A DNA stretch of 42,820 nucleotides from a virus: positions 1 through 42,820 of the IMG/VR virus record IMGVR_UViG_3300027365_000027. One strand, given 5' to 3'. Below the pieces are notes generated by a model that saw only the letters and a list, made by a program, of their open reading frames with translations, ran no database searches and was not told where the DNA came from. Shown piece by piece: positions 8,720 through 41,732 of the stretch (positions are counted from its first letter, which is position 1; every line of letters starts with the position of its first letter). A program made the position numbers and the translations under genes.

Positions 8720-8746
8720 TTGCAGTAATGCAATATTGCAATAATG
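8720..8746. repeat. TGCA octamer-repeat element, copy 2
   Basis: Four TGCA/TGCAG-type units at 8-bp spacing (TGCAGTAA, TGCAATAT, TGCAATAA) lie 21 bp upstream of the start of the minus-strand 179-residue gene, in otherwise GC-rich DNA. Likely a promoter or protein-binding site. Confidence 0.75.
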
Positions 8747-8765
8747 GGACCCCCGAAGGGGTCCC
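8746..8765 (-). terminator. Hairpin after the major capsid gene
   Basis: GGGACCCC and GGGGTCCC form an 8-bp stem with a CGAA-type loop directly downstream of the capsid stop. On the minus strand it runs into an AT-rich repeat element instead of a U-tract. Confidence 0.6.
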
Positions 8766-9963: not shown

Positions 9964-9982
9964 CTTATTGCATTATTGCAAT
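9964..9982. repeat. TGCA octamer-repeat element, copy 3
   Basis: TTATTGCATTATTGCAAT lies 10 bp upstream of the capsid start on the minus strand and touches the stop of the scaffold gene. It is the only AT-rich block between the two genes. Confidence 0.75.
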
Positions 9983-13710: not shown

Positions 13711-13721
13711 GCGGCACCCCT

Positions 13722-13752
13722 TTCAATAATGCACTATTGCAATAATGCAATG
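13722..13752. repeat. TGCA octamer-repeat element, copy 4
   Basis: Successive TGCACTAT, TGCAATAA and TGCAATGA units, 8 bp apart, lie 12 bp upstream of the portal start on the minus strand. This is the best candidate for a head-operon promoter or operator. Confidence 0.75.
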
Positions 13753-18267: not shown

Positions 18268-18932
18268 TCCTCCAGCACCTTGAGCGCTCGCTTGAAGCGC
18301 TCCACCCGATCGGCCAGGCCGTGATACCCGCCATTGATCTCGCGGGTCGTGGTCTTGATGTCCCCGCCGGTCACCCGCTCGGTCCAGAACCAGACGGCCG
18401 AGGCCACTGCAATCTCCGGGGCATCACTCAGCCGCTCCGGCTGCCTGAGCAGATCGACCCCCAAGGCCCGACTGCAGGCGGTGTAGTTGGCCCGGCCGGT
18501 CAGCTGGAAGATCCCCCGCCCCCGATAGCGGTACCCATCCCCGGGCTGGGTGTTGCCCAGGTTCCGCTCTCCCCAGATACCGCCGTACAGCAGGTTGCCC
18601 AGCGCCTCCTCATCGGCCGGGTGTGCCGCGTTACGACCGAACCGACCCGCCTGAACCAGGGAAATCCGATGCCGGCCGAACAGCTTCTCCAGGGCTTCCT
18701 CGCCGTAGTTCAGCGACTCCTCGAGCTCACGGAAGCTGGCGCTCTCGTGACCGGCTTGTGCCAGGAACAACGCCACGTCGTGGTCGCTCTCGATACCGGC
18801 ACGGCTGAGCTGTGTCTGCAGGGGCTCGGCCCACCGCTCGGATTGATGGCAGGCCGGGACCATGCGGGCCAGGCAATGCGGGGTCAGCACCTTGGGCGTC
18901 AGCAGTAACGCCTCATCCATCCATTGTTGCAT
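18264..18932 (-). CDS. Endolysin, glycoside hydrolase 19 (chitinase-like muramidase)
   Basis: This encodes 222 residues with GH19 hallmarks: ALFLAQAGHESASFRELEES, with the catalytic Glu after GH, then YRGRGIFQLTGRANY and the C-terminal GGYHGLADRVERF. No signal peptide or membrane anchor is present, so it needs a holin for release; the LydA-like holin is far away at 41.1 kb. The start chosen (18932) lies inside a TGCA repeat element with GGAG about 10 nt upstream. An internal ATG 12 nt later is an alternative. It is the first gene of the minus-strand late operon. Confidence 0.85.
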   Translation of the reverse strand: MQQWMDEALLLTPKVLTPHCLARMVPACHQSERWAEPLQTQLSRAGIESDHDVALFLAQAGHESASFRELEESLNYGEEALEKLFGRHRISLVQAGRFGRNAAHPADEEALGNLLYGGIWGERNLGNTQPGDGYRYRGRGIFQLTGRANYTACSRALGVDLLRQPERLSDAPEIAVASAVWFWTERVTGGDIKTTTREINGGYHGLADRVERFKRALKVLEE

Positions 18933-18950
18933 TATTGCAATACTCCAATA
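18924..18950. repeat. TGCA octamer-repeat element, copy 5
   Basis: TGTTGCATTATTGCAATACT has two TGCA cores 8 bp apart. It overlaps the start codon of the endolysin gene and is the first element of the leftward late unit. Confidence 0.7.
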
Positions 18951-19101
18951 AGCGATGGCGATAGTGTACGGGCGGCGTATCAGGCGTGCTGAAGAAATCT
19001 ACAAGGCGTACTTAGGTCAGGTTTTCCGGATTTTGCTCATCGGGGTATGGAGGCAGGTCTCACTGTCTTGACACAACAAAACAAAAGACCCCCCCCCTAT
19101 A
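18951..19101. other. Divergent intergenic region with C9 tract
   Basis: No gene is visible between the leftward endolysin and the first rightward early promoter. The stretch holds an A/C-rich, G-poor run ending in nine C residues (19089-19097) just before the promoter hairpin. In linear N4 DNA the late right end and the early left end are the physical termini. If that holds here, the join of genome ends, or a collapsed terminal repeat, should lie in or near this stretch. Confidence 0.45.
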
Positions 19102-19118
19102 CGCTCCGCGGTAGTAAG
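19102..19118 (+). promoter_or_regulatory. vRNAP-type early promoter P-A
   Basis: CGCTCCGCGG forms a 3-bp core stem (CGC/GCG) around the loop TCC on the non-template strand (GGA on the template). N4 virion RNA polymerase promoters have a template hairpin with loop GGA inside GCGGAGC, the same seven bases. An AGG lies at the spacing of the N4 start site (19117-19119) and is conserved in all five copies. It is followed by a leader hairpin and the 59-residue gene. Confidence 0.75.
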
Positions 19119-19140
19119 GGAATAGGGACGCCTGTTCCTA
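19119..19140 (+). promoter_or_regulatory. 5' leader hairpin of first early transcript
   Basis: GAATAGG and CCTGTTC pair with one G-U around ACG, within a few bases of the predicted transcript start. Comparable hairpins follow promoters P-B, P-C and P-D, suggesting 5'-end protection of early mRNA. Confidence 0.5.
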
Positions 19141-19441: not shown

Positions 19442-19453
19442 ACACCACATACA

Positions 19454-19470
19454 CGCTCCGCGGCAGTGAG
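19454..19470 (+). promoter_or_regulatory. vRNAP-type early promoter P-B
   Basis: CGCTCCGCGG with TCC loop, then GCAGTG and AGG at the same spacing as P-A. It is followed by a CAGGC/GCCTG leader hairpin and the 30-residue gene. Confidence 0.72.
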
Positions 19471-19514
19471 GAATAACAGGCAATCCAGCCTGCCCAACTC
19501 ACGGAGACACCAGC

Positions 19515-19655: not shown

Positions 19656-19694
19656 CTGAAACAGTGCCTGTCGCTGTTCACCAGATGTTCTCGT

Positions 19695-19715
19695 TACCGC
19701 TCCGCGGTAGAGAGG
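19695..19715 (+). promoter_or_regulatory. vRNAP-type early promoter P-C
   Basis: TACCGC TCC GCGGTA is a perfect 6-bp stem with a 3-nt loop, the canonical N4 vRNAP hairpin geometry. AGGG follows at the conserved spacing, then a GGGAATGGCA/TGCCTTCCC leader hairpin. Upstream sequence CGCTGTTCACCAGA is shared with P-D, so the modules are duplicates. Confidence 0.8.
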
Positions 19716-19755
19716 GAATGGCAATGATGCCTTCCCCGATAACGGAGAGATCATC

Positions 19756-19965: not shown

Positions 19966-19988
19966 TACCGCTCCGCGGTAGACAGGAA
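19966..19988 (+). promoter_or_regulatory. vRNAP-type early promoter P-D
   Basis: TACCGC TCC GCGGTA is a perfect 6-bp stem identical to P-C, with AGG at the same distance. It drives the 95-residue gene, and possibly the genes beyond the following terminator. Confidence 0.8.
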
Positions 19989-20029
19989 TGGATGTTCCGT
20001 TCCTCACTTCATCGATCCAGGAGATCACC

Positions 20030-20747: not shown

Positions 20748-20750
20748 TAA

Positions 20751-20767
20751 CGCTCCGCGGCGGGAAG
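20751..20767 (+). promoter_or_regulatory. vRNAP-type early promoter P-E
   Basis: CGCTCCGCGG with TCC loop and AGG at the conserved distance. Within 50 bp come a TGCA octamer element and a terminator-like hairpin, so output to the RNA polymerase genes may be controlled by read-through. Confidence 0.7.
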
Positions 20768-20773
20768 GACTGA

Positions 20774-20797
20774 TACTGCAATATTGCATTACTGCAA
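20774..20797. repeat. TGCA octamer-repeat element, copy 6
   Basis: TGCAATAT, TGCATTAC and TGCAAGG at 8-bp steps, between promoter P-E and a hairpin, 42 bp upstream of the next gene. Confidence 0.72.
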
Positions 20798-21177: not shown

Positions 21178-22128
21178 ATGACCCAGCCTGTTACCCACAT
21201 GCTGCCCCGTGACATGCAGCTGACCAACGAATCCCTGTACTCGAAGAAGGCCATCGACTGCTACATCGACCGGGAGATTCGTGACAATCCCGACATGGAA
21301 GCCAAGGTCATCGAGGGCATGCAGCGCCTCGAGGCCTGGCGTGCCAAGTCCTACTACGACTCCAAGAATGCCCGACTGGCCCAGCTCGACGGGCTGGACC
21401 TGGAGGAGGTGGTCAGGCGCATCTACATCAACGTCGCCTACTGCCAGCTCCCGGAGCTGTTCACCTCTGTGACAGGCCGGCTGGCCGGCGTGCTGCGCAT
21501 GTCCGAGAAGGGCGATGGCATCACCACCATCGGCGAGATGCTGGCCGTGCTGTGCCTGACCGATGTCTTCGACATCATGAAGGAGAACGCCATGGCCAGC
21601 CTCAAGGTGCAGAGTCACATTCCCCTGAGCGAGCGCCTCATCGAGTACGTCAGTCAGGCCCGCTACCTGCCGCCCATGGTCTGCGAGCCCGCACCCGTGA
21701 CCCACAACTTCGAGAGTCCCTACCTGACCGAGAACTCGTGCCTGATTCTCGGCAAGGGCAATGGCCACACCGAGGACATCTGCCGTGACGTGATCAACAC
21801 CCAGAACCAGGTGCCCCTGAGTCTCAACCTCGAGATGCTCACCACCATCGAGCTGTTCCCCAAGCCCGGCAAGGAGCCGGTCACGCCCGAGGATCAGGAG
21901 CAGTGGCACCGCTACAAGGTCCAGACCTACGAGGTCTGTCACCTGATGGCCAAGCAGGGCAACCGCTTCTGGCTGACCAACAAGGTCGACAAGCGGGGGC
22001 GCCTGTACTGTCAGGGCTACCAAATAAATTTACAGGGATCTGGATGGCACAAGGCCGTGCTCGACTATGCCGACAGGGAGACCGTGGAAGGCGTGCCAGA
22101 CAGCCTCAGGCTGCCACCACGGGCCTGA
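21178..22128 (+). CDS. T7-like RNA polymerase, subunit 1 (N4 RNAPII gp15-like)
   Basis: This encodes 316 residues. It covers the N-terminal and thumb-side half of a single-subunit RNA polymerase up to the T/DxxGR motif, seen as DKRGRLYCQGYQINLQGSGW (DKRGR at 271-275). T7 polymerase has DWRGR followed by a NPQG-type loop at the same place. The frame then ends after VEGVPDSLRLPPRA, just where the T7 sequence continues into the region found in the next polymerase gene. N4 RNAPII is likewise two proteins. It would transcribe middle genes. Codons for the conserved Tyr-Gln-Ile-Asn-Leu-Gln stretch (22021-22043) are abruptly AT-rich. Confidence 0.82.
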   Translation: MTQPVTHMLPRDMQLTNESLYSKKAIDCYIDREIRDNPDMEAKVIEGMQRLEAWRAKSYYDSKNARLAQLDGLDLEEVVRRIYINVAYCQLPELFTSVTGRLAGVLRMSEKGDGITTIGEMLAVLCLTDVFDIMKENAMASLKVQSHIPLSERLIEYVSQARYLPPMVCEPAPVTHNFESPYLTENSCLILGKGNGHTEDICRDVINTQNQVPLSLNLEMLTTIELFPKPGKEPVTPEDQEQWHRYKVQTYEVCHLMAKQGNRFWLTNKVDKRGRLYCQGYQINLQGSGWHKAVLDYADRETVEGVPDSLRLPPRA

Positions 22129-22566
22129 TCGCCACCTCAGCCGACCCAAGGCCCTTCTACCGCGGTAGCGGTGCTCACAGGCCCGTACAGGGCCATTCAC
22201 GGAAAGCCGTGTAGGAAATCGCCGACAATCCAGTGAACACGTCTTAACTACCCTTTGCTTAACGGGCATACTCCCACTTTCTGATGAGCGGCTTAAGGCG
22301 AGCCGCCCAGCCAGGGACCGGAGGCCGCAGTTCCGAGAAAGCGGTGACGGGCGAGCGCTTGCGCAGCAAGCGAGCCCGGAGCCGCTGCCGCGGAAGTAAG
22401 GCCGAGGGGACCGCTGCTGGGTTGGGCGCCTTAAGCCCGTCTCCGCGGTTCCGCCCGAACGCATTCCTTATCTATAAGGAATTTCACGGAACCGCTCTGG
22501 AATGCGGGTTACAGCCCGGCATCTGCACCACTTGCACCGGAATCTGGTGCAGATCGGAGATCCCAC
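22129..22566. other. Highly structured 438-bp non-coding leader, possible origin or RNA element
   Basis: No gene is visible. The stretch holds CTACCGCGGTAG (22157-22168, perfect palindrome), GGCCCGTACAGGGCC (22180-22194), CACGGAAAGCCGTG (22199-22212), and a 148-bp imperfect palindrome (22290-22437). Then come ATTCCTTA TCTA TAAGGAAT (22463-22482) and a 10-bp stem ATCTGCACCA/TGGTGCAGAT (22521-22554) that ends just before the ribosome site of the next gene. Such density suggests a structured RNA, a replication origin or a mobile element end. No group I or group II core was recognised. Confidence 0.6.
22290..22437. repeat. 148-bp imperfect palindrome
   Basis: The outer arms are GGCTTAAGGCG (22290-22300) and CGCCTTAAGCC (22427-22437). 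The inner arms GGGCGAGCGCTTGCG and CAGCAAGCGAGCCC meet at about 22363. The symmetry axis is the same for both, so this is one long hairpin rather than separate repeats. Confidence 0.75.
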
Positions 22567-23154
22567 ATGAGTCAGTTTCAGCCCCTCGAGGACGCACGCG
22601 TCGACCTCGACAGCGGGGAGCTTGTCGTCTCCCGACAGTACCGCAGCGACCGGCCCTACCGAGCGGATACGCAGCCGGTCCAGCCCACCTTTGCCGACAT
22701 CCGCAGCATCGCCGGCCTGCGCCGGTTCCTCGATCATGTCGATCGCCGCACCCTGGTACGTGCCAACGACTGCCGTCGCATCTATGACCGCGACAAGGGC
22801 AACCACCACCTGCAGAGGCGAGCCATCGTCTTCACCAACCACCAGTACGGGCATCTCGACCGGCTGGTGCGCCAGCTCGACTACGCCAATGCCGTGATCA
22901 CCACGCCCGTGGATCTGGCTCGGCGCCTGGGCGTGCGTCGCAACCACCTGTATCGCCACCTTGAGACCCTGACGCCGCTGGTGCGGGTCTACGGGGTCCG
23001 CGAGGGCATGGCCAAGGGCAGCATCCGGGTCGATGTCAGTCCCGCCTATGGCTTCCGCTATCCCAGTCCGTGGTTCGGGCTGGCACGGGCCGAGGCCATC
23101 CAGACCTGGTACCTGTCCCTGTTGCAGCAATACAACACTGCATTATTGCAATAA
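22567..23154 (+). CDS. Winged-helix Rep-like or regulator protein between RNAP subunits, 195 aa
   Basis: The ATG at 22567 follows CGGAGATCCCAC. Residues about 95-160 form a winged-helix pattern: LVRQLDYANAVITTPVDLAR, then RLGVRRNHLYRHLETLTPLV, ending in a wing and the 'VSPAYGFRYPSPWF' turn. That order (helix, recognition helix, basic wing, aromatic turn) is typical of RepL-type plasmid replication proteins and phage replication/transcription factors. The N-terminal part is Arg-rich. The gene separates two RNA polymerase subunit genes, has a strongly folded leader, and its stop lies inside an octamer-repeat element. Replication initiator and regulator both remain possible. Confidence 0.6.
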   Translation: MSQFQPLEDARVDLDSGELVVSRQYRSDRPYRADTQPVQPTFADIRSIAGLRRFLDHVDRRTLVRANDCRRIYDRDKGNHHLQRRAIVFTNHQYGHLDRLVRQLDYANAVITTPVDLARRLGVRRNHLYRHLETLTPLVRVYGVREGMAKGSIRVDVSPAYGFRYPSPWFGLARAEAIQTWYLSLLQQYNTALLQ

Positions 23155-23160
23155 TGAAAT
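23139..23160. repeat. TGCA octamer-repeat element, copy 7
   Basis: CTGCATTATTGCAATAATGA carries two TGCA cores 8 bp apart and contains the stop codon of the Rep-like gene. It lies 35 bp upstream of RNA polymerase subunit 2. Confidence 0.7.
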
Positions 23161-23194
23161 AACCGTTGGATCCAAGAACTTAGGAGATCACCCC

Positions 23195-23434
23195 ATGACC
23201 CATTACTCTGCCTTCGAGTACCTGCTGATTGATGTGGCCAACCAGATGGGCCACGACAAGCTGCTGTTCGGGGAACGAATCCAGTGGACCCTCGAGCGTA
23301 TCGATCACCTCGAGGAGCTGCTCGGCGAGGCCGAGAACCCGGAGCGCTATGCCCGGGCCGTGATGGCGGTGCGCGAGGCCCAGCGGGGCGAGGCGACCGG
23401 CCACCGGGTGGGCCTGGATGCGCTTTGTTCGGGT
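23195..23434 (+). CDS. T7-like RNA polymerase subunit 2, fragment a, exon 1
   Basis: The start ATG at 23195 has a strong TTAGGAGATCACCCC site, supporting an independent subunit as in N4 (gp16-like). Exon 1 gives 80 residues; LLIDVANQMGHDKLLFGERI matches the T7 polymerase segment before motif A. It ends at LDALCSG, with the motif A catalytic Asp at residue 75. The exon ends in T at 23434, as group I splice sites do. Without splicing the frame stops two codons later (AAA TGA). Codons at the junction (CTT TGT TCG GGT) are atypical for this GC-rich genome. Confidence 0.82.
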
Positions 23435-23765
23435 AAATGACTGCCCCTTTGGTGTGCGAGCACCATCGAAAACTCCGTGAATTGCTGGGACACCTGACCG
23501 CGTGATGGCGAAGGCAATCAGCAGCCAAGCCCTAGGAGGAATCCTAGGGAAGGTTCAACGACTAGGGCATACCATCCAGACCGGATGATGAAGCCCATAA
23601 GGATCAAGCGATCCTGAAGTGCGGAGCACCTCAACGAGGTGATGATATAGTCTCACCTGCATAGAAATATGCAGCAGCATCAGCAGATTTAAAGGGTACA
23701 CCTTTGGTGATCTGCCAAGGCCTGATGATGCGGACATCGAGTAGCGATCGATGTTGAAGATTGTG
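23435..23765 (+). ncRNA. Group I intron in RNA polymerase motif A (331 nt, no ORF)
   Basis: Core elements in order: AATTGCTGGGA (P), AATCAGCAGCC (Q), GGTTCAACGACTAGGG (R) and GATGATATAGTCT (S), the conserved group I set. The intron ends in G at 23765. Splicing joins LDALCSG to VQIMSALTG and restores the T7 motif A (T7 has LDGSCSGIQ). It encodes no endonuclease, so it is minimal and probably depends on another nuclease for mobility. Its core is very similar to that of the MoxR intron. Confidence 0.88.
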
Positions 23766-24194
23766 GTTCAAATCATGAGCGCCCTGACCGGATGCCATGC
23801 CGGGGCGCGTGCCACCGGCCTGATCGATACCGGCGAGCGCCCCGATGCCTATACCGCGGTGACTGATGCCATGAACCGCATCCTGCTGAGCCAGGGGCTC
23901 AACGTGAACGTGTCCCGCAGTGATGCCAAGCAGGCCGTGATGACCTCGATGTACGGCTCCCGGGCCGAACCCAAGCGCATCTTCGGTGAGGATACCCCGG
24001 AGCTTGCCGCCTTCTATCAGGCGCTGGAAGAGGTGGCACCGGGCGCCTGGAAGCTGTTGCAGGAACTGCTCGACTCCTGGCAGCCCTATGCCCTGGAGCA
24101 CCGCTGGGTGCTACCTGACGGCTTCGTGGCCCGCGTCAAGGTCATGCAGGAGATCGAGAAGCGTCTCGAGATCGACGAGCTCCCACTAGATTAG
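23766..24194 (+). CDS. T7-like RNA polymerase subunit 2, fragment a, exon 2
   Basis: This exon continues the frame for 142 residues (fragment a totals 222). It carries motif B, SRSDAKQAVMTSMYGS, with the Lys (residue 135) and Tyr-Gly that in T7 contact the incoming nucleotide, and VLPDGFVARVKVM, matching T7's TPDGFPV region. It ends EIDELPLD and a stop, although a full polymerase would continue into HATFTYVW, which is found after the inserted HNH gene. The fragment therefore lacks motif C and cannot be a complete catalytic subunit alone. Confidence 0.82.
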   Translation, partial: VQIMSALTGCHAGARATGLIDTGERPDAYTAVTDAMNRILLSQGLNVNVSRSDAKQAVMTSMYGSRAEPKRIFGEDTPELAAFYQALEEVAPGAWKLLQELLDSWQPYALEHRWVLPDGFVARVKVMQEIEKRLEIDELPLD

Positions 24195-24251
24195 TGAACC
24201 ACGCTACTGTTTGCTATTATACCGGCATATCACTAATGCAAGGAGCACCGC

Positions 24252-24915
24252 TATGCCTAAGCCCATCGATCTGACCGACCACACCTACGGACGCCTGACT
24301 GTGCTGCGGGAGGTTGATCCTCCTGTCTATCCCCGCAAATGGCACTGCCGCTGCGAGTGTGGCACCGAGAAGGTGATCACCGGAGCCTCTCTCCGCAATG
24401 GTAAGACGCAATCCTGCGGGTGCCTTAACAAGGAGATTCTGTCGGCCAAGGGCACTGTCCACGGTGCCCACGGCACCCGGCTCTACAGCATCTGGCACAA
24501 CATGCGCCAGCGCTGTAACAACCCCAACCGTAAGACCTATGCCTACTACGGGGCCCTGGGCATCACGGTATGCCCTGAATGGAACACCTTTGCCCCCTTC
24601 AAGGCATGGGCAGAGTCCTCGGGCTACGAGGACGGTCTGACGCTGGATCGCAGGGATGGTAGCCAAGGTTACTCCCCTGAGAATTGCCGATGGGTGACGC
24701 ATACGGTTCAGTCACGGAACCAGAAGAAGCGACGTACCAATACCACCGGCCATACAGGCGTTCATTACCTCAAGCACCTGGGCAAGTACGAGGTCTACCT
24801 CACGCTCAGCTACAAGAAGACCGTCCTGGGCTACTTCGACACCGCGGATGAGGCAGCAGCAGCGCGTGCCGCCTACATCAAAGAGAACAATCTCACCGAC
24901 TTTCCCACCGACTAG
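24252..24915 (+). CDS. HNH/AP2-type homing endonuclease splitting RNA polymerase subunit 2
   Basis: The ATG at 24252 has AAGGAGCACCGCT upstream; the product is 220 residues. A zinc-finger-like N-terminus (CRCECGTEKVITGASLRNGK, then CGCLN) is followed by the phage homing-nuclease core: YSIWHNMRQRCNNPN, then YGALGITVCPEWN, then LTLDRRDGSQGYSPENCRWV. The last 55 residues are an AP2-like DNA-binding domain (GVHYLKHLGKYEVYL, then LGYFDTADEAAAARAAY). It has its own ribosome site, and only 57 nt precede and 12 nt follow it between the two polymerase fragments. It is therefore a free-standing nuclease that has fractured the gene. Confidence 0.82.
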
Positions 24916-24927
24916 AGGAAGAATCCC

Positions 24928-25527
24928 ATGGGTCATGCAACGTTCACTTATGTCTGGCAGGAAAATCGTGGGCAGGAATCCGGCCTCTCCAATGTGGCAA
25001 ATGTTATACATTCCTGCGATTCGTACCTCCTCAGGTGCTTGATTCGCCGCTGTAATTACAACGTGGAGCAGACCGAGGCTGCCTTGAATGCCTGCTTCAT
25101 GCGCCTGGTCGAATGCGACCTCCATGGCTTGACTCCTCACCCTATCGCGGAGGCTCCCGAGGCGATCCAGAAGTATTCAGAACGCTTCCACGCCACCAAT
25201 ATGGCGGATGTCGTCATCATCCCTTACCTGACTGAGGATACTGCCATCTACCTCACCGAAGACCATCTCCGCAGGCTCGCCAACATCATGGAGGAGATGC
25301 TCGATCATCCGCCGTTCCCGGTGACCTCGATCCATGACGAGTTCTGTGCCCACGCCAACCACCTCAACGTCCTGCGCCAGCAGTACGTCAACATCCTCGC
25401 CGAACTGGCCGACTCGACCATCCTCGACGACATCCTCTCCACCCTCCATGGCTGCCAGGGCAGCTACCAGAAGCAGAGCAGCGACCTCAGCCAGTACATC
25501 CGCGAGGCGGAGTACGCGATCGGCTGA
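24928..25527 (+). CDS. T7-like RNA polymerase subunit 2, fragment b (motif C)
   Basis: The ATG at 24928 follows AGAGGAAGAATCCC, so it can be translated on its own; 199 residues. HATFTYVWQE continues where fragment a stops. NVANVIHSCDSYLLR matches T7 NFVHSQDGSHLR, and FPVTSIHDEFCAHAN is motif C with the catalytic Asp (137). The palm therefore has one metal-binding Asp in fragment a and the other here. Fragments a and b together (about 421 residues) match the length expected for the N4 RNAPII large subunit. The first codons are AT-rich like the other insertion junctions. Confidence 0.82.
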   Translation: MGHATFTYVWQENRGQESGLSNVANVIHSCDSYLLRCLIRRCNYNVEQTEAALNACFMRLVECDLHGLTPHPIAEAPEAIQKYSERFHATNMADVVIIPYLTEDTAIYLTEDHLRRLANIMEEMLDHPPFPVTSIHDEFCAHANHLNVLRQQYVNILAELADSTILDDILSTLHGCQGSYQKQSSDLSQYIREAEYAIG

Positions 25528-26861: not shown

Positions 26862-26953
26862 GTATCACCGTATCCCTCGACCAGGTCCACGACGACATCG
26901 TGCGCTGCATCAAGGCCCGCCTGACCCCGATGCTCTGGGGCTCGCCAGGTATT
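26858..26953 (+). CDS. MoxR-like AAA+ ATPase, exon 1 (N4 gp24-like)
   Basis: The 32 codons from the ATG at 26858 end in LWGSPGI, the first part of the Walker A loop. The exon ends in T at 26953. Joining to exon 2 (GKSGL) gives GSPGIGKS, a perfect P-loop (residues 28-35). The start overlaps the upstream stop. The final codons (CCA GGT ATT) are atypical for this genome, as at the other intron junctions. Without splicing the frame stops at once (TAA). Confidence 0.85.
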
Positions 26954-27192
26954 TAACTTTTTCTAGGTACCTTTGGGGAGCAATCCCCTCAAAATAAACC
27001 CCTTGAATTGCTGGGAACCCCTGAAGCCCTGTCACCACAGGCACCGCGAAAGCAGGTGTCGAAGGTTAGAAAACGACAGGGATTGGGCAATCAGCGGCCA
27101 AGCCCCTAAGTCCTTTGGATATGGGGAAGGTTCAACGACTAGCCGCAAGGCGTACACCTCAAGCGAGGTGGAAGTGGGGGGCTCCGTTATTT

Positions 27193-27231
27193 TTGACTTT
27201 CCGTGCGGTGCTCCCTATATTATTGGAGCAC
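27193..27231 (+). promoter_or_regulatory. Host sigma70-type promoter with operator-like repeat for intronic HNH
   Basis: TTGACT (27193-27198), 17-bp spacer, TATATT (27216-27221). The -10 lies in the loop of a perfect inverted repeat GTGCTCC/GGAGCAC (27208-27214, 27225-27231), which could bind a repressor or fold in RNA. It lies 29 bp before the HNH start. Confidence 0.65.
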
Positions 27232-27249
27232 ACCTTACGAGGATTAAGC

Positions 27250-27870
27250 ATGGAAACGTTCAAGGACATTGTAGGATACGAAGGCCTTTACCAAGTCTCT
27301 GACCAGGGACGAGTCATTAGCCTGAGACGCCAAATAGAATTGAAGACAGATGTCTTCACTTCTGGCTCTGTCAGCTATGCTCGCGTCACCCTGAGCAAAG
27401 ACAGTAAGACTGAACGCTTCTTGGTGCATCGCTTGGTTGCGATGGCCTTTCTCCCGAATCCTGATGAAAAGCCCTGCGTAAACCATAAGGATAACAATGG
27501 GTTAAACAACAGTTCGGATAATTTGGAATGGTGTACGTATTCCGAGAATATGCAGCATTCCGTGAAGCAGGGTCGTCAGGCCCTTGTTCAGTCAAATGCC
27601 ACCCAGGCTGCAGTCGTGCCGAATTACAATCGGTACACGGACTACTGGAGAACGAAGCTAGGTGAGCGCTTTGTTGCGTTCTACCCCGCACATCAGGTGG
27701 TGCATGGCGGAACCAAGCCTTGTGCCGCTGTCCGGTATATTTGCAGCGAATGTGGCATCAGCCGTCTCAGTCGAACAAACTGGGCTGAGATTCGTGTTCA
27801 CAAAGGTGTGTGTCCTAACTGCACCTACACAGTGTCCCTAACGGATGAAGATATAGTCTCGACTGCGTAG
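27250..27870 (+). CDS. Intron-encoded HNH homing endonuclease (NUMOD4 + HNH)
   Basis: The ATG at 27250 has GAGGATTAAGC upstream; 206 residues. NUMOD4 at the N-terminus (FKDIVGYEGLYQVSDQGRVI), then the HNH core (LVHRLVAMAFLPNPDEKPCV, then NHKDNNGLNNSSDNLEWCTY) at about 60-100. The C-terminal part carries four Cys (CSECG, CPNC) forming a zinc ribbon not seen in the polymerase-intron relative. Its GC is far lower than the surrounding exons. It probably cleaves intron-less MoxR alleles at the P-loop. The stop codon lies inside the intron S element, a tight co-adaptation. Confidence 0.88.
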   Translation: METFKDIVGYEGLYQVSDQGRVISLRRQIELKTDVFTSGSVSYARVTLSKDSKTERFLVHRLVAMAFLPNPDEKPCVNHKDNNGLNNSSDNLEWCTYSENMQHSVKQGRQALVQSNATQAAVVPNYNRYTDYWRTKLGERFVAFYPAHQVVHGGTKPCAAVRYICSECGISRLSRTNWAEIRVHKGVCPNCTYTVSLTDEDIVSTA

Positions 27871-27930
27871 AAATACGTAGAAGTTCATAAGAGAACTGGT
27901 GGCGGGGTAGCGCCCGCCATTGAAGATACG

Positions 27931-32377: not shown

Positions 32378-32401
32378 TGCGTTATTGCAATAATGCAATA
32401 C
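32378..32401. repeat. TGCA octamer-repeat element, copy 8
   Basis: TGCGTTAT, TGCAATAA and TGCAATAC at 8-bp steps, 23 bp upstream of the 126-residue gene that precedes DNA polymerase. Confidence 0.75.
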
Positions 32402-32813: not shown

Positions 32814-34505
32814 ATGCACCACCTCATCTTCCAGGAGGCCGACCACTATCCAGTGGCGCTGCTGATCAAGCCGGCCTACCTGCGCCGCTACGAGATGCAG
32901 CGTCACTACCTGGATAGACTGGCCCCCGACATCAGCGCCAGCCAGGTGATCGCCTTCGATCTCGACTACGGCGGCAAGAAGAAGCCCACCGCCCGCATCG
33001 CCAAGGCCTACCTGGAGGACCTGCTGCCGATCCTGCAGGAGCAGGGGGTGGTGTACCTGTACTGTGCCGACGCCGAGTATTTCAAGGTGCTCACCAGGCA
33101 GCCCAAGGCCGAGCCCCATGTGGGCTACGTGCTGCCCTGTGCCCTCAAGGGCTTCGAGCACATGCGCGTGGTCCTCGGTGTCAACTACGGCCAGCTGGTC
33201 TACAACCCCGAGGTGGTGGATCGCCTGGACATGACGCTCGAGACCCTGGTGGGGGCTGTCACCGGCTCCTATCAGGCCCCGGGCACCGGCATCATCCGCC
33301 ATGCCCACTACCCCAACACCTCGCTGGAGATCAGCGCGGCGCTCGACAACCTGCACCAGCACGACGAGCTGGCCTGCGACATCGAGGCCTTCAGCCTGCA
33401 CCCGTTCAAGGCCGGCATCGGCACCATCGCCTTCGCCTGGAGCCAGCATGAAGGGATCGCCTTCGCCTGCGACTACTCCGGGACCCTCAACGACGAGGAA
33501 CACGAGGTGGGACTGCGTGGCGTGCAGGTGGCCAACCCCGCGGTGCGTCATCACCTGCGCCGGTTCTTCGAGACCTACCAGGGACGGCTGCGCTGGCACA
33601 ACGCCAGTTACGACATCCGCTCGATCATCGCCGTCCTGTGGATGCGCCATCCCAAGGATTATGCGGGCCTGCTCACGGGCCTCTCGGTCATGACCCGGAC
33701 GTTTCACGACACCAAGGTGATCGCCTACCTGGCCACCAACTCCACGGCAGGCAACAAGCTGGGCCTCAAGGCCCTGGCTCACGAGTTCACCGGCAACTAT
33801 GCCCAGGAGGACATCAAGGATATTCGGCGTATACCGTTATCTCAGTTGCTCGAGTACAACCTCGTCGACTCCCTTGCCACCAACTACGTGTTCGACAAGC
33901 ACTATCCGGCCATGGTCCGCGACCAGCAGAAAGAGCTGTACGAGACCCTGATGCTCCCGAGCCTCAAGACCATCGTGCAGATGGAACTGGTCGGCATGCC
34001 CATGGAGCCAACCAGCGTCACCCATGCCCGGCGCCAGCTGGAACAGGAACTGGCCACGCACCAGGCGGTACTGGATGCCAGCCCTGCCGTGTATCGCTTC
34101 AATCGCTGGCTCCAGCACGACGCCATGGAGAAGGCCAATGCCAAGCTCAAGGCTAAGCAGCACCCGCTCTCGGCGTTCTCGCACATCACCCTCAACCCCA
34201 ACAGTGGTCCCCAGCTGCAGGCGTTCCTCTTCGAGCATCTGGAACTGCCGGTGCTCGACTACACCGACACCAAGCAGCCGGCCACCGGACGCAAGACCCT
34301 CGAGAAGCTCAAGAACCACACCACGGATGCCGGGGTGCTGGCGGTCCTCGATGCCCTGATCGGCATCAACAAGGTCGCCAAGATCCTGTCGGCCTTCATC
34401 CCCAAGTTCGAGGAAGCCCTGGTCAAGGACGATCGGCTGGCCTGGCTGCATGGCTCGTTCAACCTGGGTGGCACCGTTTCGGGCCGGCTGTCGTCCTCGG
34501 ATCCT
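32814..34505 (+). CDS. DNA polymerase family A, exon 1 (N4 gp39-like)
   Basis: The ATG at 32814 follows TTAGGAGCCGCC; 564 residues in this exon of an 881-residue protein. A 3'-5' exonuclease domain shows Exo I (ELACDIEAFSL), Exo II (WHNASYDIRSI) and Exo III (YNLVDSLATNYV). The polymerase domain starts after about 380 and reaches TVSGRLSSSDP, the motif preceding motif A. The exon ends in T at 34505. Codons at 33821-33848, just before Exo III, switch abruptly to AT-rich choices. It is the phage replicative polymerase. Confidence 0.92.
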
Positions 34506-35338
34506 TAAAGATAGGGCTTCATGCTGGTAACAGCATGTCGAAAACTGCCTAAACGGGGAAACTCCTATGGTATCTTACCTATGGTATTATTCTTCCATCA
34601 CTAAGCTACCAAAGGACAATCCCGTGCTAAATTCTACACCTGAGATTGGAAAACCCATCCCCGGTTTTGAGGACCTCTACGAGGTCTCCAACCATGGACG
34701 GGTCAGTAACTTTCGGAAGATTCTCAAGACCTACAAGATCAACAGTGGCTACCTGGCCCTCAAGCTACAGAAGGATGGCAAGGTAAAAAGCGTGCTGTTG
34801 CATCGTCTGGTTGCAGAACTGTTTGTCCCTAACCCAGAAGGGAAGCCTGAGGTGAACCACATCGATGGCAACAAGGAGAACAACAGGGCTGACAACCTGG
34901 AGTGGGTCACTAGTGCTGAGAATAAGGCTCATGCCCGTTCGACAGGCCTGTCTGTCTACAACATGCCAGGCAAGGGCGTGAAGAAAGCCACCACCAAGTC
35001 CAGGTATCACAACGTGGCTTGGGATTCTTCCCGAAAAAAGTGGGTCGGCAAGGTCACAATCAACAACCGCAACTACAAGCAACGGCGGTTTGATGATGAG
35101 ATCGAGGCGGCACGCTACGTCAATCAGTTACTGGATGAGCTGGGCTTGTATGACCGGCCCCGCAATCAGGTGTAGATAAACGCCGAACGACTATCCCGCA
35201 AGGGAGTAGGGTGCAAGCCAATGGCACCCGAAACGGCAGTCACCCTTAGGGGTGTTGATATAGTCTGCTCTGCATGGCGACATGCAGCAGTTCATAAGAG
35301 AACGGGGGAGGGCGTTGCGTCCCTCCTCGAACACAAGG
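34506..35338 (+). ncRNA. Group I intron in DNA polymerase (833 nt, with HNH ORF)
   Basis: Core: AAACTGCCTAAACGGGGAAA (P region), GCCGAACGACTATCCCGCAA (R) and GTTGATATAGTCTGC (S). It starts after T (34505) and ends in G (35338). Removal joins SSSDP to NLQQIP, restoring the family A signature. The HNH ORF is placed before R, unlike in the MoxR intron. The 3' region GTTCATAAGAGAAC is shared with the MoxR intron. Confidence 0.9.
34624..35175 (+). CDS. Intron-encoded HNH homing endonuclease (NUMOD4 + HNH + AP2)
   Basis: NUMOD4 (GFEDLYEVSNHGRVSNF), the HNH core (LLHRLVAELFVPNPEGKPEV, then NHIDGNKENNRADNLEWVTS) and a C-terminal AP2 domain (YHNVAWDSSRKKWVGKVTIN, then RRFDDEIEAARYVNQLL). The start is uncertain. 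I annotate the GTG at 34624, which has AAAGGACAATCCC upstream; ATGs at 34567 and 34579 are alternatives but lack a good site. It presumably recognises the conserved DPNLQ coding sequence of intron-less polymerase genes. Confidence 0.82.
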   Translation: MLNSTPEIGKPIPGFEDLYEVSNHGRVSNFRKILKTYKINSGYLALKLQKDGKVKSVLLHRLVAELFVPNPEGKPEVNHIDGNKENNRADNLEWVTSAENKAHARSTGLSVYNMPGKGVKKATTKSRYHNVAWDSSRKKWVGKVTINNRNYKQRRFDDEIEAARYVNQLLDELGLYDRPRNQV

Positions 35339-41008: not shown

Positions 41009-41041
41009 TCCTGTCTGCCAGGGGCACTCCCGGTACAATGC

Positions 41042-41063
41042 GTTGTTGCAATAATGCAACAAC
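41042..41063. repeat. TGCA octamer-repeat element, copy 9
   Basis: GTTGTTGCA ATAA TGCAACAAC is a perfect 9-bp inverted repeat; TGCG, TGCA and TGCA cores are 8 bp apart. It ends 13 bp before the holin start. Confidence 0.78.
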
Positions 41064-41520: not shown

Positions 41521-41732
41521 TGTCGTGTAACAACGACGCTGGATAAATCACCAGTCGTGCCCTCAAGCCGATAATCAAGATAAGGCGCGTAATCTTGAAT
41601 TTGTTGCGGGGCACCATAACCCGCCTGTAATCCTAAACGTAATTACATATTACGTAACGATAACGCTTGCAATATTGCAGTATTGAACTACGGCAATATT
41701 GCAATACTTCAATCACGCAAGAGGACTGAACC
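41521..41732. other. AT-rich intergenic region, possible origin or promoter
   Basis: This 212-bp gap has no gene and is the most AT-rich stretch of the right half. It contains a perfect inverted repeat ACGTAAT TACAT ATTACGT (41637-41655), the motif TTACGTAACGATAACG, and the largest octamer-repeat element (41667-41715). Its composition and symmetry suit a replication origin or a strong regulated promoter. Confidence 0.5.
41667..41715. repeat. TGCA octamer-repeat element, copy 10 (double)
   Basis: Two arrays in tandem, TTGCAATATTGCAGTATTG and CGGCAATATTGCAATACTTC, each with 8-bp periodicity. It is the longest member of the family, 18 bp upstream of the 82-residue gene. Confidence 0.75.

Follow-up and report, generated by a model that had tools for sequence, protein, structure and literature searches.

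A distantly RepL-like winged-helix gene and a folded non-coding stretch located between the RNA polymerase subunit genes of an N4-like phage

Introduction

Phage N4 and its relatives in the Schitoviridae carry a two-subunit RNA polymerase of the T7 type (RNAPII in N4), where the gp15-like gene is located upstream of the gp16-like gene and the spacer between the two is variable. The N4 products gp15 and gp16 map to non-overlapping parts of the T7 RNAP, and a brief remark in the same paper concerns two other phages in which a gp16-like gene is divided into two (PMC4496689). The spacer can bear cargo, as in phages G7C (15.1) and HK2 where a free-standing HNH gene is found at this boundary. In the Litunavirus phages VL1 and YH6, gp16 contains a group I intron after codon 80 and a homing endonuclease gene is annotated in VL1. 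Free-standing HNH genes are also known to divide enzymes into two separately translated pieces, as in the T4 topoisomerase 39/60 and Aeh1 nrdA (PMC2988022).

The window, which is the whole stretch of 42,820 nucleotides analysed here, is a 42.8-kb metagenomic viral record of the N4-like type with a GC-rich genome. The two polymerase genes are arranged in it as in N4 and the other Schitoviridae. Unlike in these relatives, the spacer holds a winged-helix gene (P0001) and a longer non-coding stretch than any of the gaps compared with it, and subunit 2 is cut by both an intron and an HNH gene.

Polymerase genes and the spacer between them

For the middle-gene RNA polymerase, subunit 1 (N4 gp15-like) is located at 21178-22128 on the + strand and matches PHROG 2166 (N4-like RNA polymerase) with E=1e-95. 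It is 44% identical to the Litunavirus gp15-like proteins in an alignment that reaches the last residue, and we therefore consider it complete. A separate ribosome-binding site, TTAGGAG, precedes subunit 2, whose start is at 23195. The matches to PHROG 2166 and PHROG 2051 place the pair among the N4-like two-subunit RNA polymerases, and a single joined query was observed to find both the gp15-like and the gp16-like genes of relatives, which represent adjoining parts of the T7-type enzyme. The original prediction, made from the letters of the window, held that the split of the polymerase is ancestral; this agrees with N4, where genes 15 and 16 are separate with 47 nt between them. It was also right that folded non-coding DNA and a winged-helix gene keep the two subunits apart here. 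The open reading frame at 23033-23440, which was taken as subunit 2, contains only exon 1 (23195-23434) of that gene.

The gap between the two polymerase genes was measured in 70 IMG/VR relatives drawn from the best 80 of 94 loci. Among these it ranges from none to 3.9 kb with a median of 393 nt, being at most 60 nt in 18 of the 70 and at least 400 nt in 32 of them. Tightly packed small open reading frames and HNH or GIY-YIG-like genes occupy the gaps, where domain names were given by eye except for the HNH genes, which match the HNH protein of the window. The gaps of annotated relatives contain nothing, a few small open reading frames or an HNH gene. In one relative (L043, 3124-6992), 3.9 kb of tandem small open reading frames, many of them alike, lie between the polymerase genes. 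The idea that the polymerase boundary is an unusual home for an insert is thus not upheld, given that the gap is variable and that most relatives have cargo in it. In Schitoviridae, the spacer between RNAP1 and RNAP2 can instead be regarded as an open cargo site.

The same gene arrangement throughout close relatives had been named as evidence against the original prediction. We did not observe it, as P0001 was absent from the 70 gaps (best 80 of 94 loci) and from the annotated phages; many of the relatives are fragments and its absence elsewhere in them is accordingly not final. The longest non-coding stretch in any of these 70 gaps (best 80 of 94 loci) is 334 nt, against 438 nt here. No convincing trace of homing genes, or of the small open reading frames seen in relatives, was found in the insert. 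The spacer of the split DNA polymerase of Aeromonas phage 44RR was considered as an analogue and rejected because it is only about 50 nt long.

The P0001 protein

P0001 (22567-23154, + strand) encodes a protein of 195 amino acids. Its codon score is 0.32 compared with 0.40 for subunit 1, and by its codon use P0001 is a real gene. The protein had been described as winged-helix and Rep-like, and both points find support, the latter at a distance, in a helix-turn-helix segment and a profile match to RepL. The search of profile databases gave HTH_20 with E=0.0034, a match that falls below the cut-off. A profile of P0001 and its single relative (see below) was compared with one made from seven RepL proteins of plasmids, which gave a probability of 85.9% with E=5e-6; reversed and shuffled controls fail in this comparison, whereas MarR and LexA proteins, compared as single sequences, score like RepL proteins compared in the same way. 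The RepL proteins were taken from plasmid records.

Possible counterparts of the features of the RepL plasmid replication proteins (PF05732), namely a TGE motif, a winged helix and NP...RG, occur in P0001 in the same order with changes. Close to their start, both P0001 and its relative have an (S/T)GE motif, followed by a predicted winged helix and, beyond the wing, by (S/N)P...FR. Unlike RepL, P0001 is about 40 residues longer and lies under the Pfam cut-off: no match to PF05732 was found for P0001 or anywhere in the window, and the relative reached E=0.17 with 11.8 bits against a cut-off of 20.3. The similarity is weak, and we take this resemblance in sequence as a lead rather than as membership of the RepL family. 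A single-sequence structure model was of low confidence (pLDDT 46) and the fold search with it gave no usable match. Matches to Erwinia jumbo phages (29% over about 100 residues, E=0.02) were set aside; they lie inside a 5-kb gene.

The folded non-coding stretch

The 438 nt between subunit 1 and P0001 (22129-22566, + strand) are non-coding, with no coding signal on either strand and negative codon scores in the overlapping open reading frames. At least six hairpins had been predicted in this leader and six were found. Three of them are located at 22158-22173, 22180-22194 and 22198-22211, and these are followed by a long imperfect hairpin of 148 nt (22290-22437, + strand) whose 22-nt outer arms are 82% complementary. 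The hairpin at 22445-22495 encloses the palindrome ATTCCTTAT-CT-ATAAGGAAT (22463-22482), which occurs as a single copy in the window, and a 10-bp hairpin (22521-22554, + strand) directly precedes the ribosome-binding site of P0001.

The folding z-score of the + strand is -5.7, with none of 100 shuffles equally good, and that of the - strand is -3.1; an independent folding run gave -4.4 and -2.3 respectively. Corrected for base composition, the stretch ranks third among 568 stretches of the same length in the same genome, so that its structure can be considered real and strong but not unique in this GC-rich genome. A known RNA such as an intron, riboswitch or ribozyme was rejected, as no Rfam 15 covariance model matched up to E=5. 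DNA relatives of the insert in phages and plasmids were likewise rejected because only short chance matches were seen. Neither a second alignable copy of the leader nor a terminator-like site within it was found.

A second member of the family

The sole convincing database relative of P0001 was found in MT836130 (32% identity, E=6e-9), an unrelated and unannotated gut-phage contig which has a tape-measure gene as well as serine recombinases. This relative also adjoins folded non-coding DNA (z=-6.0). A 14-mer, ATTCCTTATCTATA, is common to the two non-coding regions and forms the palindrome core in both, where it lies between the folded stretch and the gene; a common 14-mer was reached in 5 of 3000 shuffles. 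The order is reversed, with the folded region before P0001 here and behind the gene in MT836130. Judged by this common core, the folded regions appear to be tied to the P0001 family, which is suggestive and not proof. Further relatives of P0001 or of its partner in MT836130 were found neither in IMG/VR nor in GTDB genomes or plasmids, and two scans of IMG/VR for the palindrome (7 and 77 contigs) gave no contig with a relative of P0001. P0001 thus belongs to an orphan winged-helix family with two known members, which are located beside folded non-coding DNA in unrelated phages.

Dispersed repeat sites

An AT-rich site at 23122-23157, located at the 3' end of P0001 before subunit 2, is one of a dispersed TTGCAATA array, and few stretches of the window are as rich in AT. 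The TTGCAATA/GCATTATTGCAA sites are largely intergenic, with 38 matches where 3.4 are expected, and are found at 24-43, 8720-8747, 9968-9981, 13721-13750, 18927-18948, 20776-20797, 23122-23157, 32379-32398, 41040-41059 and 41667-41712. They are perhaps phage promoters or operators. One relative (L024) has four copies of an array variant, TACTGCAATA, and the TTGCAATA array was not seen in the other relatives tested. The idea that P0001 reads this array is weakened because L024 has the variant array with no P0001 in the part examined. Another set of repeats, CGCTCCGCGG(T/C)AG, was observed upstream of the polymerase genes, in the early region (19093-19119, 19445-19475, 19689-19719, 19966-19990 and 20748-20772), and these may serve the virion RNA polymerase as hairpin promoters.

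Interpretation of the insert

Our preferred reading, to which we assign a probability of roughly 0.42, is that the insert is spacer cargo consisting of a RepL-like winged-helix DNA-binding gene together with its own cis-acting folded region, which would serve as a replication start or in control. The spacer that holds this cargo varies across Schitoviridae, and the gene would be expressed by the phage. P0001 would most likely bind the palindrome next to the folded stretch, and this stretch may then be the site where P0001 starts replication or controls its own gene. We counted in favour of this reading the variability of the spacer, the absence of P0001 from relatives, its codon use, the folded DNA of MT836130 with the common palindrome core, and the RepL profile match with failing controls. 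Counted against it were the non-specific nature of the RepL similarity, the lack of origin marks, the folded region on the other side of the gene in MT836130 and the number of members, which is two only. For the folded stretch, we place a replication start a little above regulation alone. Neither iterons nor DnaA boxes nor a clear skew switch were found at the insert, and for this reason a regulatory role stays close behind.

Such a role, which is possible if doubtful, would make P0001 a transcription regulator and the leader an attenuator or translational control, where read-through shifts the amount of subunit 2 relative to subunit 1. The winged-helix fold is common to many repressors, the end of the last hairpin lies 13 nt upstream of the P0001 start codon, and the insert lies between two genes which would otherwise be on a common transcript. 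The better folding of the + strand and the palindromic sites dispersed between phage genes, one of them at 23122-23157, also fit this role, whereas the leader without a terminator-like site, the position of the folded region in MT836130 and the array variant in L024, where P0001 was not found, speak against it. We consider it unlikely that the 438 nt represent a non-coding RNA or structured element which is unrelated to P0001 and precedes it by chance. It matches no Rfam family, and since no second leader copy can be aligned, the link between leader and gene comes from two loci only; however, each of the two known members of the family adjoins non-coding DNA that is folded and contains this palindrome core.

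It is very improbable that the insert is a mobile element of an undescribed kind with the polymerase gene boundary as its target, as had also been suggested. Relatives do have homing endonuclease genes at this boundary and several insertions are present in the same stretch of the genome, but P0001 has no nuclease, recombinase or transposase domain (the spacer genes of G7C and HK2 differ from it in this respect), there are no flanking repeats around the insert, and no second copy was found at any polymerase boundary among relatives (best 80 of 94 loci). This suggestion is not sustained by 22129-23194, in which no endonuclease, transposase, recombinase, intron core or terminal repeat was found. 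We give hardly any credence to an assembly error joining foreign DNA into the phage contig. The record is metagenomic and the insert is in no near relative, yet its GC content and codon use match those of the phage and a dispersed phage repeat site lies at the end of P0001.

Returning to spacer cargo, a more speculative extension, which we regard as improbable at present, is that P0001 and the folded palindrome region form a two-part module of an initiator or regulator and a structured cis element. This module would move between unrelated phages and, in the lytic N4-like phage studied here, provide an additional replication origin or a switch. If it starts replication, it would represent a small transferable origin.

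Interruptions of subunit 2

Exon 1 of subunit 2 (23195-23434, + strand; codons 1-80) matches PHROG 2051 with E=3e-29 and is followed by a group I intron of 331 nt (23435-23765, + strand). The intron matches RF00028 with 86.5 bits (7.8e-21), against a gathering score of 50, and lies inside a conserved gene. Its splice sites were inferred from the reading frame and P1, and place it after codon 80, inside the conserved LDALCSG|VQIMSA motif. GGGT is the end of exon 1 and GCCC occurs eight bases into the intron; these two may pair as P1, with the U-G that is usual where splicing takes place. The position is the same as in VL1 and YH6 but, unlike the introns of these phages, the present one is 331 nt long and has no endonuclease open reading frame. 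Group I introns were also observed in conserved enzyme parts of the gp16-like genes of the relatives L078, L082, L073, L081 and L005, located after codons 80, 240 or 353 depending on the phage.

Exon 2 (23766-24194, + strand; PHROG 2051, E=3e-54) ends in EIDELPLD and a stop codon. A free-standing HNH endonuclease gene (24253-24915, + strand; PHROG 374, E=1e-79) then separates it from a C-terminal piece with its own ribosome-binding site and start (24928-25527, + strand), which matches positions 217-400 of PHROG 2051 with E=2e-47. What this gene parts (EIDELPLD-stop and M-GHATFTYV) is encoded as one run in relatives, and relatives of the HNH gene itself are located in the RNAP1-RNAP2 gap of other Schitoviridae. 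No intron core was found around the HNH gene (24253-24915), and likely ribosome-binding sites precede both it and the C-terminal piece. Since a free-standing gene with these properties divides it, subunit 2 is probably made as two polypeptides. The division of one enzyme into two pieces at 24194-24928 is the same as in T4 39/60 and Aeh1 nrdA, except that the enzyme here is an RNA polymerase subunit and the pieces are predicted from genes. The gene next to the insert offers a test case of a T7-type polymerase which possibly functions as three polypeptides and with a splicing event.

Another group I intron, which contains a NUMOD4/HNH gene, was observed at 26950-27880 (74.1 bits). The DNA polymerase gene has a probable one, together with an HNH gene, at 34495-35287, where the Rfam score is weak (23.3 bits, E=0.0015) and pieces of the interrupted DNA polymerase flank the intron.
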